From positions 1 through 64,000 of the forward strand of contig JANQRW010000087.1 in assembly GCA_028284365.1 (NCBI GenBank): a stretch of DNA of 64,000 bases, given 5' to 3'. The position numbers and the translations under genes are program-made. The notes below the pieces were generated by a model. The model worked only from the letters and a program-made list of their open reading frames with translations. It made no database searches and was not told the DNA's origin. This DNA is from Marinicella sp. Its GTDB lineage: Bacteria; Pseudomonadota; Gammaproteobacteria; Xanthomonadales; Marinicellaceae. How positions within the stretch are numbered: position 1 is the first letter of the stretch; every line of letters starts with the position of its first letter. Below are positions 29,083 through 37,521 of this stretch, one piece after another.

Positions 29083-32000
29083 ATGTTTCATCGTTTGTCG
29101 ATATTTTTAATTGCTTTTGCATTACTTTACTTTACCAACTCATCAGCACAAGATCGATTTTATAATATTTATGTGGATACTGATGGCTCAATCACTACTG
29201 GTTGTGATGTAAATTTGCCAGAATTTTCATCCAACATCGGGGGAGTCGAATCCCGACTCACCATAACCACTGACAGCGCCTTACCTCCCAATGTTACTGC
29301 CACCACTTTTCACCAATGCGATGGAACAGCCTTTGGGACGGGCAGCGCCATTGCACCAGCAGCCATGGGCTTGAACACTGGTATGAATGGCACTGATGTT
29401 TTTGAAGTGGGGTTCAATCAAAACCTTTTGAATGTTACCAGCTCAGGCAATGTAATATTCTATTTCACTACAGATTCAAACACCGCTTCTGACATCGTTT
29501 TGACTCAGTCCAATGGTGGTCCAATCATTTTAGGATTTGTTTTCCCAGTACCAGCGTTAGGACTGTTGGCGTTGTGTTTGATTATATGCTGCGTGCTTCT
29601 GATGACAAGAAAATCCATGTCAAGCAAAATGGCACTCTCTGTTATGTTGATTGGTGTTAGTTCACTTGTCTGGGCAATGAACATCATTGTTGATGGACAA
29701 ACCAATGATTGGACAACCTTTCAGCCCTCAGCATCAGACCCGGTGGGTGATACATCCCAGAATGGAAGCTTCGCCGATCTAACTGCTGTGTTTTTAACCA
29801 AAGTGAATGAAACAGTTTTTGTCCGTTTAGATGTGGTTGATGTTGAAAATCAGGCACCTTCAGCAAATGGCAATTCTGTAACCACACTTGAAGAACAGGC
29901 GGTCACGATCACTTTGACTGGCTCTGACGCTGAAGGCTCCGCCATCACTTTTGCTGAAGGCAATGCACCAACAAACGGTGTATTGAGTAATTTCACAGTC
30001 GTTGATGGCACTTCATCCACCGTTGATTACATACCAAACACAGATTTTGCAGGATCAGATGGTTTTACCGTGGTTGCCAATGATGGTCAGATAGATTCAG
30101 CTCCTGCCAGCATAGCAGTGCAAGTTAATCCTGTGAATGATGCGCCCAGCTTTATTTCTGGTGGCAATGTTAATGTTTTAAAAACTGCCGGTGCATATAA
30201 TCAAATTTGGGCCACTGACATTTCAGCAGGTCCAGTCGATGAATCTAGCCAAAATCTGACTTTCAATATCACAACAAACGACAATGCTGCTATTTTTACT
30301 GTACAACCAAGCATTGACTCATCGGGCATGTTGACATTTGAGGGAGTTCCAGATGCCACTGGCACTGCCAATTTGTCGGTCAACTTAGTTGATGATGGTG
30401 GCACAGCTAATGGCGGTTTTGATACTTCTACAACAGTCGATTTCACCATCACTTTACAGGGCGTAAACGACGAACCCACTTTCACTGCGGGAGCAGATCA
30501 ATCATTACTTGAAGATGCCGGCACGCAAACAATTGTCGGCTGGGCCACAGCCATATCAGCTGGACCACCTGATGAATCCGGGCAAGCGCTCACTTTTAAT
30601 GTAACCAATAACGATGATCCAGCTTTATTCAGCGTAACGCCACAAATAGATGCCACAACTGGCGACCTTTCATTCACACCTGCTGCTGATGCCAATGGTA
30701 TAGCCAATATTTCAGTCTTTTTAATGGACGATGGTGGTACAGCCAATGGTGGCGATGATACATCACCAACCGCTTCCTTCAATATCACATTAACTGCAGT
30801 TAACGACGCACCCTCTTTCACTGCTGGGGCCAATCAAAATGCACTGGAAGGTGCAGGCGCACAAACTGTTAATAGCTGGGCCACTGGCATATCTCCCGGT
30901 CCAGCTGATGAAGCAGCACAAGCCACATCTTTCAATGTCAGCAATGACAACAATGGATTATTCACAGTTCAACCCAACATTGATGCAGCAGGTAATTTGA
31001 CTTACACGCCTGAAGGCACTGTTTTAGGTTCAGCCACTGTTACTGTCTCAATCAGTGACGATGGTGGTACTGCCAATGGAGGCGTAGACACTTCGACGAA
31101 TCAAACCTTCATTATCAGCGTGACTCCGGTTAATGATGAACCCTCATTTACTTCAGGACCCGATGAAACAGTATCAGAAGACGCTGGCGCACAAACTGTT
31201 AATGGTTGGGCCACCAACATCATGGCAGGCCCGCCCGATGAAGCCGGACAAAATTTAACCTTTAACATCACTGCAAACAACAACCCTGGCCTCTTCAGTG
31301 TTGGACCTGCGGTGTCTGCTGATGGTACTTTGAGCTACACGCCTGCTGCTGATGCCAATGGTACAGCCAACATCACCATAGAATTGATGGATGATGGCGG
31401 CACTGCTAATGGTGGCGATGACACCTCACCACCGCAAAGTTTCAGCATCACTGTCAACCCACTAAACGACGCCCCTGATTTCACTGTTGGTGCCAACCAG
31501 AGTGTGCTGGAAGAATCAGGCCCACAAACGGTTAATGGTTGGGCCACCAACATATCTCCAGGTCCAAGTAATGAATCAGCACAATCTGTCAGCTTCAATG
31601 TCGCCAATAACAACAATGCACTGTTCAGCGTCCAGCCTGCTGTCGACACCTCCGGTAATTTGACTTATACACCAACAGCCAATACCAGTGGTTCAGCCAC
31701 GGTCAGTGTTGCTGCGATGGATGATGGTGGCACAGCCAACGGTGGTGTTGACACATCAGCCCCACAAAATTTCACCATCACCGTTGTAGGGATAAACGAT
31801 GCACCCAGCTTCACTGCAGCTGCTGATCCTGCAGCGTCTAGTGAAGATGGAGGTGCTGAATCTCTGGCATGGGCCTCTGGCATTTCAGCTGGTCCAGCTG
31901 ATGAATCTGGACAAACGCTCACCTTTAATTTAACTCAGACCAGTATCGATACAACATTGAGTTTTTCAACTGTGCCATCAGTGAACAGCACCACTGGTAA

Positions 32001-34893
32001 TGTTGAATACACTGCTGCAGCCAATGCATTTGGTACAGCCACATACGATGTTGTATTGATGGATGATGGCGGCGTCGCTAACGGTGGGATTGACACCTCT
32101 AGTCCCGCTGTTTCGCTGACCATAACTGTGGATCCAGTTAATGATCCACCATCAGTTACAGCACCAGGACCATTTGCAGTCACCACTAACATTCGAATTG
32201 AAGTTCCTGACGGAAGCAGTGATTTGTTGGCCAATGCCACAGACGTTGAACCAAGCACCACTTTATCAATCCAGGGTAGTGGTTCCATAGCCACAACACA
32301 AGGAGGCACCATCACTGTTAACAATGCCACAGGTGAATTCAGTTATGACCCTCCACCAGGTTTTACTGGCACAGACACTTTTGATTATCAGGTTTGTGAT
32401 GATGGCGTTCCAGTACCCGCAGCTTGTAGCACTGCAGTTACAGTTACACTGAACGTGTCAGGAAATACCATCTGGTTTATCGACAATACTGCTGCTGCTG
32501 GAAATGGAACACTGCAAACACCATTTAACTCATTGTCGGCATTTAACTCATCAGCCAACCCTGGCACCGGGCATTATGTCTTTCTGGCCACTGGAACCGG
32601 CACTTATAGCGAAGCTGGAATCACGCTGGCAGCAGGTCAAACTTTACTCGGTCAAGGCAGATCAGGTTCTTTCGATGTGGTGACCGGAATCACTGCTGCG
32701 CCATTCAGTATCAATAGGCCTACGCTGGGCGGAGCTCGACCTTTGATTGTCAGCTCTGCAAACGGCATAAACATGTCCACCAACAATGATATCAGAGGTT
32801 TGAATATTGGCAACACCACCAACTTTGGTTTACGAGGCACAGTAATCGGCAACCTGACCTTAGACGAAGTCGGCATTAACGGTAATGGCGGAGGTATCCA
32901 AATCACCACCAGCGGTGCATTGTCATCGGTCAGCTTTGATGTTCTTGATTCTACAAGCAGCACCACTGCAGCAATAGACCTAAACGGCACCACTGGTACT
33001 GTGTCTATTGCTAGCAGCACGACTGGTATCAATAACAACTTTGCCAGTCCTGCCATACGCATCAATGGTGGTTCACTCAATATGACCTATCCTGGCAGCA
33101 TCAACAACACATCAGGTCGATCCATTGAGGTCAGTAATAACACTGGAGGGATCTTAAATTTCAATGGCCTAGTGGATGACGATGCAGCAGGAATTTTGCT
33201 GAATAACAACACCGGAGCAACCATAAACTTCTCCAGTTTAGATTTGGATACAGCTACTGATACAGCATTCACCGCAACTGGAGGTGGCACAGTCAATATA
33301 ACTGGCTCAACCAACACCATCGATACCACGACAGGTCTTGCCATAAATATACAAAACACTTCCATTGGCACATCCGGTATCACATTAAGAAGTGTTAGCA
33401 AGAATGGTGGTACCACTGGTATTGATATCAATGGTGCCGGCTCTGCAGGTTTCTTTACCATAACAGGTACGGGCACTTCCAATGGCAGCGGAGGAACAAT
33501 ACAGAACACCACTTTAAATGGCATTCTGATAGAGAATACCAATAACATCAACATCAGTAATGTAAATCTCAACAATGGCACCAACGAATCCGCTGGCTGT
33601 TTAGCTGGAGTTAATGGTGTCAGTGGCGATTGTAACGCCGCGATTGAATTCAATACAGTCAGCAATATTAATTTAACAAACCTCACCATAGACGGCAACG
33701 GCGATGCCTCTGACGAGTTAGGCATATATGCCAACACAGTCACCAACTTCGATATGAACAATGTAACGGTTCAAAACGTATCAGACAGCATCAATGAACA
33801 CGGTATTTATGTGGTTAATTTAGCTGGAATCGGCAGCAACACCAGTCGCTGGCAAGATCTGACTGTTAACAACACGGCTGGAGACACAGCTATATTAGTG
33901 ACTCAAAACACCGGCAACGCAGAATTAATTGTTGATGGGGATACCAACATCACCAATGCCCTGGAAGCTGGTTTTGAAGCCAGAACCACCACCGCAACTG
34001 CTAACCTGACCGTTACCCTGGGCGATGCACCAGCAATAGGCAGTGAAACTACACTGATTGAAAACACCAATATTGGCGCCCTTTTCATCGCTGATAATGG
34101 CAATTTAACCGCCAATGTTCGCAACAGCATCATTCAACCAGGAGCTGGTATCGGTTCTATTATCAGACCAGGTTCAGGTTCTAATGGTGTTATGTTTGTC
34201 GGTGTTACGGCACAATCTGGAGGTACTACAGGATCAGTCACACTGAATGCGATAGGTAACAGCACCACTCAGGAAGACGGTGGCGCTGGCGGTACAGGTA
34301 GATCGGCCAATGCCTTGGGCGGATCTCAAAACATCAGTGGCAATGTCAGCAACAACACCATTGGATCTAATGACGAATTTGTAGACGGATTCTTTTCAAA
34401 CTTTACTGGAGTCGGTAACTTAACCACCAATACAGTTCTTATAGATAACAACATCATCAATATGACTGGAACAGGCACCAATGAAACCATCTCAGGCATT
34501 GAATACAACGCTTCGGACAGTGCAGGTGAATTATCCATGACGGTCACCAACAACACCATATTTTCGGCCGGTGATAATGGATTTTCGGGAGGTATCATCT
34601 CACTGGCTGGTGATACTGGTGGTGGCGATAATAACATTCTTTGTACTGATTTGATAGGAAATGATGCCACATTACCCAATGCACCTGTTGGTGTTGATGG
34701 TGACGATTATGTCTTTGTTTCTTTCTCTGGCACTGAAATCAGGCTGGAAAACCCAACTTTAGGTGTCTTGTCAGAAGCTCAAATTGATGCCCACATTATT
34801 GGCAACGACGCAGGAACAACAACAGCAACCGATGTTAATGTCTTCAACGTAGGTAGTGGCTTCCACTCTGGTGTGAGTGCATGCCCACAATAA
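29083..34893 (+). CDS. giant exported surface protein: cadherin-like repeats plus beta-helix-like region
   Basis: Start chosen at 29083 (AGAGG 5 nt upstream, then a signal peptide ending SSAQ); starts at 29080 or 29017 are in frame. The product is about 1,936 residues. Residues 1-178 form a small exported domain ending in VPALGLLALCLIICCVLLMTRK. A second signal-like segment, MSSKMALSVMLIGVSSLVWA, follows at once. Next come six ~110-residue repeats (VNDAPSF...GxANGGxDTS), an Ig-like domain (VNDPPSVTAPG) and about 700 residues of Asn/Thr/Gly-rich parallel beta-helix-like sequence beginning NTIWFIDNTAAAGNGTLQTPF. It is probably an adhesin or surface-layer type protein; the secretion route is not visible. 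Confidence 0.8.
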   Translation: MFHRLSIFLIAFALLYFTNSSAQDRFYNIYVDTDGSITTGCDVNLPEFSSNIGGVESRLTITTDSALPPNVTATTFHQCDGTAFGTGSAIAPAAMGLNTGMNGTDVFEVGFNQNLLNVTSSGNVIFYFTTDSNTASDIVLTQSNGGPIILGFVFPVPALGLLALCLIICCVLLMTRKSMSSKMALSVMLIGVSSLVWAMNIIVDGQTNDWTTFQPSASDPVGDTSQNGSFADLTAVFLTKVNETVFVRLDVVDVENQAPSANGNSVTTLEEQAVTITLTGSDAEGSAITFAEGNAPTNGVLSNFTVVDGTSSTVDYIPNTDFAGSDGFTVVANDGQIDSAPASIAVQVNPVNDAPSFISGGNVNVLKTAGAYNQIWATDISAGPVDESSQNLTFNITTNDNAAIFTVQPSIDSSGMLTFEGVPDATGTANLSVNLVDDGGTANGGFDTSTTVDFTITLQGVNDEPTFTAGADQSLLEDAGTQTIVGWATAISAGPPDESGQALTFNVTNNDDPALFSVTPQIDATTGDLSFTPAADANGIANISVFLMDDGGTANGGDDTSPTASFNITLTAVNDAPSFTAGANQNALEGAGAQTVNSWATGISPGPADEAAQATSFNVSNDNNGLFTVQPNIDAAGNLTYTPEGTVLGSATVTVSISDDGGTANGGVDTSTNQTFIISVTPVNDEPSFTSGPDETVSEDAGAQTVNGWATNIMAGPPDEAGQNLTFNITANNNPGLFSVGPAVSADGTLSYTPAADANGTANITIELMDDGGTANGGDDTSPPQSFSITVNPLNDAPDFTVGANQSVLEESGPQTVNGWATNISPGPSNESAQSVSFNVANNNNALFSVQPAVDTSGNLTYTPTANTSGSATVSVAAMDDGGTANGGVDTSAPQNFTITVVGINDAPSFTAAADPAASSEDGGAESLAWASGISAGPADESGQTLTFNLTQTSIDTTLSFSTVPSVNSTTGNVEYTAAANAFGTATYDVVLMDDGGVANGGIDTSSPAVSLTITVDPVNDPPSVTAPGPFAVTTNIRIEVPDGSSDLLANATDVEPSTTLSIQGSGSIATTQGGTITVNNATGEFSYDPPPGFTGTDTFDYQVCDDGVPVPAACSTAVTVTLNVSGNTIWFIDNTAAAGNGTLQTPFNSLSAFNSSANPGTGHYVFLATGTGTYSEAGITLAAGQTLLGQGRSGSFDVVTGITAAPFSINRPTLGGARPLIVSSANGINMSTNNDIRGLNIGNTTNFGLRGTVIGNLTLDEVGINGNGGGIQITTSGALSSVSFDVLDSTSSTTAAIDLNGTTGTVSIASSTTGINNNFASPAIRINGGSLNMTYPGSINNTSGRSIEVSNNTGGILNFNGLVDDDAAGILLNNNTGATINFSSLDLDTATDTAFTATGGGTVNITGSTNTIDTTTGLAINIQNTSIGTSGITLRSVSKNGGTTGIDINGAGSAGFFTITGTGTSNGSGGTIQNTTLNGILIENTNNINISNVNLNNGTNESAGCLAGVNGVSGDCNAAIEFNTVSNINLTNLTIDGNGDASDELGIYANTVTNFDMNNVTVQNVSDSINEHGIYVVNLAGIGSNTSRWQDLTVNNTAGDTAILVTQNTGNAELIVDGDTNITNALEAGFEARTTTATANLTVTLGDAPAIGSETTLIENTNIGALFIADNGNLTANVRNSIIQPGAGIGSIIRPGSGSNGVMFVGVTAQSGGTTGSVTLNAIGNSTTQEDGGAGGTGRSANALGGSQNISGNVSNNTIGSNDEFVDGFFSNFTGVGNLTTNTVLIDNNIINMTGTGTNETISGIEYNASDSAGELSMTVTNNTIFSAGDNGFSGGIISLAGDTGGGDNNILCTDLIGNDATLPNAPVGVDGDDYVFVSFSGTEIRLENPTLGVLSEAQIDAHIIGNDAGTTTATDVNVFNVGSGFHSGVSACPQ
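30133..32136 (+). repeat. six tandem ~330-bp repeats (cadherin-like modules)
   Basis: Units begin at VND/LND/IND motifs near 30133, 30463, 30799, 31129, 31462 and 31792, and a differing seventh domain begins near 32137. Spacing is 330-345 bp, always a multiple of three. Shared blocks are GPxDExxQ, DDGGxANGGxDTS and the closing ITV. Units differ at many positions, so they are old duplications and not recent ones. Confidence 0.85.
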
Positions 34894-35056: not shown

Positions 35057-35569
35057 ATGTCTGAACCATTTTTAGCAGAAATCAGAATCGTGGGCTTTAA
35101 TTTTGCACCGCGTGGCTGGGCCTTTTGTAATGGCCAAATTTTACCAATAAACCAAAATCAATCATTATATTCTCTGTTAGGAACCACTTATGGCGGTGAC
35201 GGCAGGACATCATTCGCACTACCAGATGTCAGAGGGCGCGTACCTATTCATGTAGGTAGCAACGGTGGACCTAATCATCGCGAAGGACAAAAATCTGGTG
35301 AAGAAACTCATACCCTGACAGCAGCAGAAATGCCACAACACAGTCATGGCATGAACGGCACAAGCAACACAGCATCAGAAGCCACTCCAAACAGTAACTT
35401 GCTACCTGGTGGTAATAATGGCCAACCTTACGCCACATCAGGAACAGTTACTATGGGTACAGGCACCATTGCCAATGTTGGCGGTGGGCAAGCTCATAAC
35501 AATATGCAACCATATCTGGCAATGAATTATTGTATTGCCTTACGTGGCTTATTCCCTTCACGAAACTAG
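35057..35569 (+). CDS. phage tail collar / Mdp-like protein, copy 1
   Basis: A 170-residue protein of the tail-collar (PF07484-like, microcystin-dependent protein MdpB) type. The conserved opening is MSEPFLAEIRIVGFNFAPRGWAFCNGQ; then ILPINQNQSLYSLLGTTYGGDGRTSFALPDVRGR; then ETHTLTAAEMPQHSH; and the ending NNMQPYLAMNYCIALRGLFPSR. A GGGGGT-like ribosome binding site precedes the ATG. It is the first of three tandem paralogues. There is no signal peptide and no other phage gene nearby, so this is not part of a visible prophage. Confidence 0.9.
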   Translation: MSEPFLAEIRIVGFNFAPRGWAFCNGQILPINQNQSLYSLLGTTYGGDGRTSFALPDVRGRVPIHVGSNGGPNHREGQKSGEETHTLTAAEMPQHSHGMNGTSNTASEATPNSNLLPGGNNGQPYATSGTVTMGTGTIANVGGGQAHNNMQPYLAMNYCIALRGLFPSRN

Positions 35570-35579
35570 GAGAAATCAT

Positions 35580-36104
35580 ATGTCAGAACCATTTGTAGGC
35601 GAAGTTCGCATGTTTGCGGGTAACTTTGCACCTCGAGGATGGGCCTTTTGTGATGGGCAATTATTGGCCGTTTCACAAAATGATGCCCTGTTTAGTTTAT
35701 TAGGAACAATTTATGGCGGTGACGGCAGAACAACTTTTGGCCTGCCTGATATGCGTGGTCGATTGGCAATACACGCGGGATCTGGTCCAGGTTTAAGTCC
35801 CAGACGCTTAGGAGCAAAAGCCGGTTCAGAAAATGAAACCCTAACTGTCAATCAATTACCCAGTCATACTCATGATGTACACGCATCTAATGCCGCTGGC
35901 TCTTCAACCAACCCCACGGGTAATTTCGCCAGAGATACAGCCGGCTCGGATATCTATATACAAGATTTATCAGCCACAAACACGGCTTTGAACTCCAATG
36001 CGATCAGTAACGTCGGTGGTTCAAGAAGCCACACCAATTTGATGCCCTTTTTATGCATCAATTACATCATTGCCTTATTTGGCATTTACCCATCCAGACA
36101 ATAG
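35580..36104 (+). CDS. phage tail collar / Mdp-like protein, copy 2
   Basis: Paralogue of the previous gene, 174 residues, starting MSEPFVGEVRMFAGNFAPRGW at an ATG preceded by AGGAGAAATC; an in-frame upstream start at 35535 lies inside copy 1 and is unlikely. It keeps the collar block YGGDGRTTFGLPDMRGRLAIH, the LPSHTHD motif and the NLMPFLCINYIIALFGIYPSR ending. The middle (residues ~95-145), which is the exposed variable part in this family, differs from the other copies. The gap to copy 1 is 10 nt. Confidence 0.9.
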   Translation: MSEPFVGEVRMFAGNFAPRGWAFCDGQLLAVSQNDALFSLLGTIYGGDGRTTFGLPDMRGRLAIHAGSGPGLSPRRLGAKAGSENETLTVNQLPSHTHDVHASNAAGSSTNPTGNFARDTAGSDIYIQDLSATNTALNSNAISNVGGSRSHTNLMPFLCINYIIALFGIYPSRQ

Positions 36105-36114
36105 GAGAAACATC

Positions 36115-36654
36115 ATGTCAGAACCTTTTATAGCAGAAATAAGAATTTTCGCTGGCAATTTTGCTCCCAGAAGCTGGGCTTTCTGTAATGGGCAGTTACT
36201 GCCTATTTCACAAAATACAGCATTATTTTCATTAATTGGCACCACTTACGGCGGAGATGGTCGATCCACCACGGCACTGCCAAATTTACAAGGCAGAGCA
36301 GCCATGCATCCTGGACGCGGACCTGGTTTGACGGCTCGCAGGCTGGGCCAAAGAGGCGGTACCGAGATGGTGTCATTATCAGAAGCACAAATGCCAAACC
36401 ATCAACACAGTGTCATTGCTGATTCTAATTCCGGCGGTTTCTCTGGGGGTGGCGCTGATACACCAGATCCTGGTCAACATTTTTTAGCCAATACTTCTGC
36501 CAGCGGCCAGTTTTACGCCGATGGCTCAAACAACCTAAGTGCCATGCGAGATGTCCAAAGTAACGGTGGCAGCCAACCACACAATAACATGCAACCTTAT
36601 ATTGCCATTAATTTCATCATTGCATTACAGGGCTTATACCCTTCCAGGAGTTAA
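36115..36654 (+). CDS. phage tail collar / Mdp-like protein, copy 3
   Basis: Third paralogue, 179 residues, starting MSEPFIAEIRIFAGNFAPRSW behind AGGAGAAACATC. It keeps YGGDGRSTTALPNLQGRAAMH, AQMPNHQH and NNMQPYIAINFIIALQGLYPSR. The variable middle is Gly/Ser-rich. All three copies have the same ribosome binding site and nearly the same spacing, so they should be made together, possibly as a mixed fibre or collar. Confidence 0.9.
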   Translation: MSEPFIAEIRIFAGNFAPRSWAFCNGQLLPISQNTALFSLIGTTYGGDGRSTTALPNLQGRAAMHPGRGPGLTARRLGQRGGTEMVSLSEAQMPNHQHSVIADSNSGGFSGGGADTPDPGQHFLANTSASGQFYADGSNNLSAMRDVQSNGGSQPHNNMQPYIAINFIIALQGLYPSRS

Positions 36655-36656
36655 TT

Positions 36657-37004
36657 ATGAACCGAAGAAATTTTGCAAAATCAGTGATCATAACTGCTGG
36701 CGCTTCTGCGTTTATAGGTAGGCCCGTTTCAGCTTCTACTGTCAACCAAACTAAATTTGAAACTGGGCATCAGATGCGCAGTGATGAAGGCCTGAAAATG
36801 ACTTTAAGTGATCATGAACTGCCAACCCTAAACAAAGATCAAAAGCAATTTGTATTAACTTTTGATGTGGATGACCCAAGTGAACGTTTGCAGGAAAAAA
36901 TATACCACCTCACGGATCGCAATGGGAAAAGGCATGAAATTTTTATGTCACCCATTAATAACAAGCAATTACAAGCTGTTTTCAATTGGAGAGTCCATGC
37001 CTGA
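36657..37004 (+). CDS. small Tat-signal protein, distant DUF6916-like
   Basis: A 115-residue protein with an N-terminal MNRRNFAKSVIITAGASAFIG: a twin-arginine motif followed by a hydrophobic stretch. The rest (LSDHELPTLNKDQKQFVLTFDVDDPSERLQEKIYHLTDRNG...IFMSPINNKQLQAVFN) has the order of elements of the small DUF6916-type protein encoded at 37514-37813: an FxLxF strand, then QexYxl, then the IFMSP strand, then AVFN. I infer that the two are distant relatives. It starts 2 nt after collar copy 3 and overlaps the GNAT gene by 8 nt. Confidence 0.7.
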   Translation: MNRRNFAKSVIITAGASAFIGRPVSASTVNQTKFETGHQMRSDEGLKMTLSDHELPTLNKDQKQFVLTFDVDDPSERLQEKIYHLTDRNGKRHEIFMSPINNKQLQAVFNWRVHA

Positions 37005-37521
37005 AAACTGGTTGGCTTTTAAAAATGAGCCAAAACAGATACCTTCAGACATTTATTTTGAAGCCATATCCACAAAGGATATGGCTTTCTTGGCCGAATT
37101 GTACTGCTCAACACGCTGGGAAGAAGTTAGGCAAGCCCCTTGGGATGATCAACAACGCATCGATTTTCTCAACCAACAATTCGAAGCACAACACCAACAT
37201 TACTCCACCCATTACCCCAATGCCGAAAAATTATTAATTAAAAAAGACAGCAGAAACATTGGCAGGATTTATGTTGACCGTGATGCAGTGTCAATTTGCT
37301 TGATTGATGTGGCTTTACTCACCGCTGAACGTGGTACTGGCTTAGGTAGTTTGTTATTAAAAGAGCTGTTATTAGAGGCCCAAGAAACCAGTAAAAAAGT
37401 AGTCATTCACGTTGAAAACTTTAATCCTGCATACCAATGGTATTTACGACATGGGTTTGAACAAGTTGAAGATAAAGGAGTTTACCAATACATGGAATGG
37501 TATCCAAAAAAAATCAAGTGA
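36997..37521 (+). CDS. GNAT-family N-acetyltransferase
   Basis: Start chosen at 36997, with GGAGAG just upstream and inside the previous gene, giving 174 residues; a longer upstream frame would read through the Tat-protein gene. The acetyl-CoA-binding motif A is ALLTAERGTGLGSLLLKELL (RGTGLG), and motif B is HVENFNPAYQWYLRHGFEQV. The substrate is unknown. Translational coupling to the collar cluster suggests it modifies one of its proteins or a surface partner. Confidence 0.82.
   Translation: MPENWLAFKNEPKQIPSDIYFEAISTKDMAFLAELYCSTRWEEVRQAPWDDQQRIDFLNQQFEAQHQHYSTHYPNAEKLLIKKDSRNIGRIYVDRDAVSICLIDVALLTAERGTGLGSLLLKELLLEAQETSKKVVIHVENFNPAYQWYLRHGFEQVEDKGVYQYMEWYPKKIK

Follow-up and report, generated by a model that had tools for sequence, protein, structure and literature searches.

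An open frame in the window (the whole stretch of Marinicella sp. DNA that was analyzed, 64,000 nucleotides in length) raises the question of why a giant exported protein should carry what looks like a sorting tail near its N-terminus, followed by what looks like a fresh signal peptide. An earlier note on this DNA offered three readings: two genes had been fused by loss of a stop codon, the protein is cut into two exported parts, or the ATG at 29617 is a second start. The observation on which these readings were built, a sorting-tail-like segment running into a second signal-peptide-like stretch with no stop codon between them, was confirmed by translation, by hydropathy analysis, and by comparison of 54 homologues. 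The signal peptide had been placed directly after the tail; the two elements are indeed adjacent, with one serine intervening between ..MTRK and MSSK. By translation, the order in the window protein is VPALGLLALCLIICCVLLMTRK (residues 156-177), S178, M179 (ATG 29617), SSKMALSVMLIGVSSLVWA (residues 180-198), MNIIVDGQTNDW, and the repeats. The features of the locus are collected in Table 1.

Table 1. Predicted features of the giant protein gene and of its downstream neighbors, in window coordinates.
Feature	Position	Strand	Remarks
Giant exported protein, 1936 aa	29083..34893	+	One uninterrupted frame; layout common to homologues
First signal peptide, residues 1-22	29083..29148	+	Predicted cleavage SSA|QDR; A22-Q23 near-invariant; model helix 2-18
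N-terminal beta domain, residues 23-156	29149..29550	+	Pattern YnIYvDtD...TGC...C; beta strands in models
Internal IPTL-type sorting signal	29548..29613	+	VP motif (P157), helix 158-174, basic R176-K177
Second export signal, residues 178-198	29614..29676	+	Short basic turn, helix ending L-V-W-A
Met179 codon	29617..29619	+	Candidate second start, judged no start
Post-junction segment, residues 199-256	29677..29850	+	DGxxxDW...DPxGD...D...RxDVxDxEN
Repeat region	29851..34893	+	Big_9/tandem-95 and cadherin-like repeats, then a repetitive stretch
Three tandem Phage Tail Collar (PF07484) genes, DUF6916 gene, GNAT acetyltransferase gene	35057-37521		Directly downstream of the giant gene

Hydropathy analysis of the 1936 residues revealed exactly three membrane-helix-like stretches (residues 1-17, 158-174, and 187-203), and no hydrophobic segment beyond these, and hence no C-terminal sorting signal, was found in the whole protein. 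The predicted signal peptidase I site of the second export signal lies after A198 (VWA|MN). Within the N-terminal domain (N-domain), D32, D34, G40, C41, and C79 are invariant in the homologue alignment (A3). The repeat part matches NF012211 with 109 bits, against a cut-off of 90, and also PF17963, while the repetitive region at the end of the protein may form a beta-helix. The predicted masses are ~14.0 kDa for the N-domain, 174.1 kDa for the repeat part, and 192.5 kDa for the whole chain.

The junction was aligned in 54 homologues from ~20 genera, the window copy being counted among them. P157 is invariant (54/54), and is preceded by valine or isoleucine in 53 of the 54. At the proposed second cleavage, position -1 is occupied by alanine in 47 sequences, glycine in six, and serine in one, and position -3 by alanine in 28 and valine in 26; small residues are thus present at both places in all 54, as expected for a signal peptidase I site behind a hydrophobic core with a basic N-side. 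The segment from the proline to the equivalent of A198 spans 41-47 residues and contains ~4 basic residues on average, and no acidic residue in any of the 54. These counts are not independent, because the aligned sequences are related, though they span ~20 genera; the junction signature is nonetheless common to the 54 homologues, well beyond chance. Sorting tails consist of a motif, a helix, and a basic cluster on the cytoplasmic side (PMC3237569), and the proline, the helix, the basic residues, and the small residues at -1 and -3 are thus what would be expected for a sorting tail joined to a second signal peptide.

The distribution of this layout bears directly on the idea of a lost stop codon. 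Two paralogues of the giant, which share its layout, are encoded elsewhere in the window genome (3.11 Mb, 99.8% complete), one on contig C15 (L009, 1681 aa) and one on contig C84 (L047, 1647 aa). A profile of residues 1-266, built from the window protein and the C15 paralogue, matched in 51 of 250 genomes of the order, representing 20 of 78 genera, and the family members are mostly single open frames of 1.6-3.5 thousand residues with no internal stop. Beyond the order, two more genomes with this layout turned up in a 369-genome sample of the class, and both encode an exosortase H (XrtH). One partial match (G050) was set aside as the ordinary C-terminal tail of a different protein. A stop codon lost recently in the window genome, or an assembly error, might be suspected, since the layout resembles two exported proteins in series, and since HVO_0405 of Haloferax is known to be the fusion product of two independent genes (PMC7157517). 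However, the frame is unbroken in the 54 homologues and in the two genomes outside the order, and no adjacent pair of separate genes was found in the genomes of the order that were searched. Four candidates for separate N-domain genes (in G011 and G015) were all shortened by contig ends. The earlier note had set two observations together against its own proposal, unbroken homologues and a single mature N-terminus, and the first of these has now been made. Because the layout recurs in ~20 genera and in two genomes beyond the order, the fusion of two genes by a lost stop was not borne out as a recent event, and we regard recent fusion or misassembly as almost certainly wrong. An ancient fusion may have given rise to the layout.

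Initiation at 29617, by which the long part would be made independently from the same mRNA, draws its appeal from an ATG that is followed by signal-peptide-like sequence. The methionine is not conserved, and the C15 paralogue has VFNNK at that place. In the interval tested, six of the 54 homologues contain no in-frame ATG, GTG, or TTG, and no Shine-Dalgarno-like site was detected upstream of internal in-frame start codons in any of the 54. A second start at this position is therefore very improbable, and this part of the earlier proposal found no support.

A single exosortase H gene was found in the window genome (174 bits, against a cut-off of 86), and its product carries the motifs APGCNGVE, NMVRI, and FFHLYLW, which we take to be the Cys, Arg, and His motifs expected of exosortases. 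The gene is adjoined by that of a repeat protein (L001:19-1140) with, as judged by eye, cadherin/Big-like repeats. Among the 250 genomes of the order, XrtH was detected above cut-off in 48 of the 51 family-positive genomes; the other three are 80, 85, and 89% complete, and the last of these has a partial match. When only near-complete genomes were counted, XrtH was present in 41/41 family-positive and 56/154 family-negative genomes (41/0 versus 56/98; Fisher p ~1.6e-15, a statistic that ignores phylogeny). XrtH thus also occurs in genomes without the giant family. A search of the open-access literature for papers on exosortase H, IPTL-CTERM, or midcut proteins returned nothing useful.

Of the three readings, cutting of the protein into two exported parts is the best supported: the family co-occurs with XrtH, the motif is of the IPTL type, and the signal-peptidase-like site is invariant. 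We consider it likely, from sequence features, that one gene gives rise to two exported proteins by way of a precursor that is cut mid-chain. Sec export would start at the first signal peptide, which would be removed after residue 22. Helix 158-174 would then halt transfer in the orientation of C-terminal exosortase tails, with the Arg-Lys pair on the cytoplasmic side and the VP motif exposed on the outer one. After the short basic turn, helix 183-198 would act as a second signal peptide and set translocation going again, so that the long repeat part is carried across the membrane. The ~14 kDa N-domain would be released by an exosortase H cut at the VP motif or close to it, and would probably be transferred to an anchor; lipid attachment is suggested by analogy. 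A second cut, by signal peptidase I after VWA198, would release the ~174 kDa repeat part, and the ~40-residue hairpin left between the cut sites would be discarded. The final location of both products is presumptive.

Two less elaborate uses of the junction deserve consideration. The hairpin might serve as an uncut, two-helix anchor in the inner membrane, with only the first signal peptide removed, leaving one chain with two periplasmic parts. A hairpin was predicted in both structural models described below, and the cleavages are themselves inferred. A plain anchor, however, needs neither an invariant proline at the outer end of the first helix nor an invariant A/V-x-A/G/S at the end of the second, and does not require tight co-occurrence with XrtH, so we judge an uncut anchor to be unlikely. 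Alternatively, a single cutter, either signal peptidase I or XrtH, might act, the remaining half of the junction anchoring one product. The two sites are each marked by a conserved signature, and it is their joint use that is deduced; yet across ~20 genera neither signature is less invariant than the other, an indication that both sites are in use, and we judge a single cutter, too, to be unlikely. An uncut anchor and the use of a single site explain the joint invariance less well than do two cuts.

Mid-chain signals in the window genome are not restricted to the giants. Three subtilisin-like proteins (L006, L007, and L008, on contigs C8, C75, and C61) have small N-domains of their own, and the same mid-chain IPTL-type helix and second hydrophobic stretch as the giant; the mid-chain signal thus also precedes an unrelated, subtilisin-type cargo in this genome. 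On contig C61 the coding sequence is interrupted by what looks like a frameshift, a 451-aa frame being followed by one of 564 aa. As for the neighborhood, the downstream collar genes recur behind the homologue in ten related loci (L074, L076, L078-L083, L088, and L090).

For each of two family members, AlphaFold2 (mean pLDDT 71.7 and 68.6) predicted a beta N-domain, a helical hairpin (158-178/181-203 in the numbering of the window protein), and two post-junction strands. Foldseek searches with the two models gave no match at E<=0.001, and nothing significant. For a CBM9-like or galectin-like fold of the N-domain, the best relevant VIA-align Z was ~4-5. A split or circularly permuted CBM9-like domain was sought in 121 genomes, using a profile in which the post-junction segment was set before the N-domain; no protein in a clear canonical order was found among these genomes, and no solved structure. 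Three rows (G114, G093, and G088) spanned both parts of the permuted profile, which was attributed to fortuitous extension of matches to the post-junction segment. The post-junction segment shares a frame with the N-domain, barring truncated or undetected cases, and a few of the weak fold matches extend from the N-domain into the first post-junction strand. Both hint that the two products of the cut might stay together, the XrtH-anchored N-domain holding the giant repeat part through the DGxxxDW segment, an arrangement that we regard as conceivable, if unlikely.

Exosortase tails are understood as C-terminal signals, and the deeply conserved giant family keeps such a signal mid-chain, backed by a predicted second signal peptide. 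If two-cut processing is correct, it would let a bacterium export two proteins from a single gene in fixed proportion. The family is a clear, testable candidate substrate for exosortase H, and a conserved subfamily that is missed by the present curated midcut model. Should the products stay together, mid-chain cutting would serve to hold a large protein that lacks a C-terminal anchor non-covalently at the surface.

Several known systems resemble parts of this arrangement. Tandem-95/Big_9 repeat surface proteins share with the giant a repeat part that scores above the NF012211 cut-off, but the repeat model is silent on the N-domain and the junction. The archaeosortase ArtA cuts HVO_0405 of Haloferax volcanii at a central site (PMC7157517), as is also stated in the title of J Bacteriol 199:e00802-16, as given in the reference list of PMC11980579, and thus offers an experimental precedent for central cutting within this group of enzymes. 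In both cases the enzyme, a proposed one for the giant, belongs to the exosortase/archaeosortase superfamily, and the tripartite signal lies away from the C-terminus; HVO_0405, however, is archaeal, a Tat substrate, and a strain-specific fusion of two genes, whereas the layout of the giant is conserved across genera. Proteins of the IPTL-CTERM type (TIGR04174, PF18203), which go with exosortase H, have the motif, helix, and basic cluster at equal columns, but at the C-terminus. The signal of the giant instead lies ~157 residues in, is followed by a second export signal, and has ~1760 residues C-terminal to it. In a congener, the same tail was observed in a different protein, where it occupies the usual C-terminal position.

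The closest likeness is to the catalogued midcut-by-XrtH proteins (NF033207), whose common order is a signal peptide, an internal IPTL-like signal, a basic turn, a second hydrophobic stretch, and an exported part, and whose examples above cut-off sit in XrtH genomes, as does the giant. Two short proteins of the midcut type were also seen adjacent in tandem at a locus (L105) of an XrtH-encoding genome from another family of the class. With E values up to 10 allowed, the window copy gave no match to NF033207 or to TIGR04174; its assignment to the midcut kind runs through its homologues. NF033207 matched 18 of 22 aligned homologues at E<=0.1 (best, 5.6e-10) in the same columns; the best of these scored 39.5 bits against a cut-off of 45, so that no family member reaches the cut-off. 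TIGR04174 matched ten of the 22 at the same columns, and its cut-off of 20.5 bits was exceeded by two homologues (L035, 21.3; L061, 21.5). In the window genome, NF033207 matched the three subtilisin-like proteins and the C15 giant, all below cut-off. Midcut proteins above cut-off have an N-part of ~25 aa and frames of 165-400 aa, whereas the giant has a conserved N-domain of ~130 aa and a C-part of ~1700 aa, and its second helix ends in a strict signal-peptidase-like site. The layout and the similarity of the relatives, with scores that stay below cut-off, point to the midcut kind, yet to a form that is not recognized by score, and the giant is thus best read as a variant of the catalogued midcut-by-XrtH proteins.
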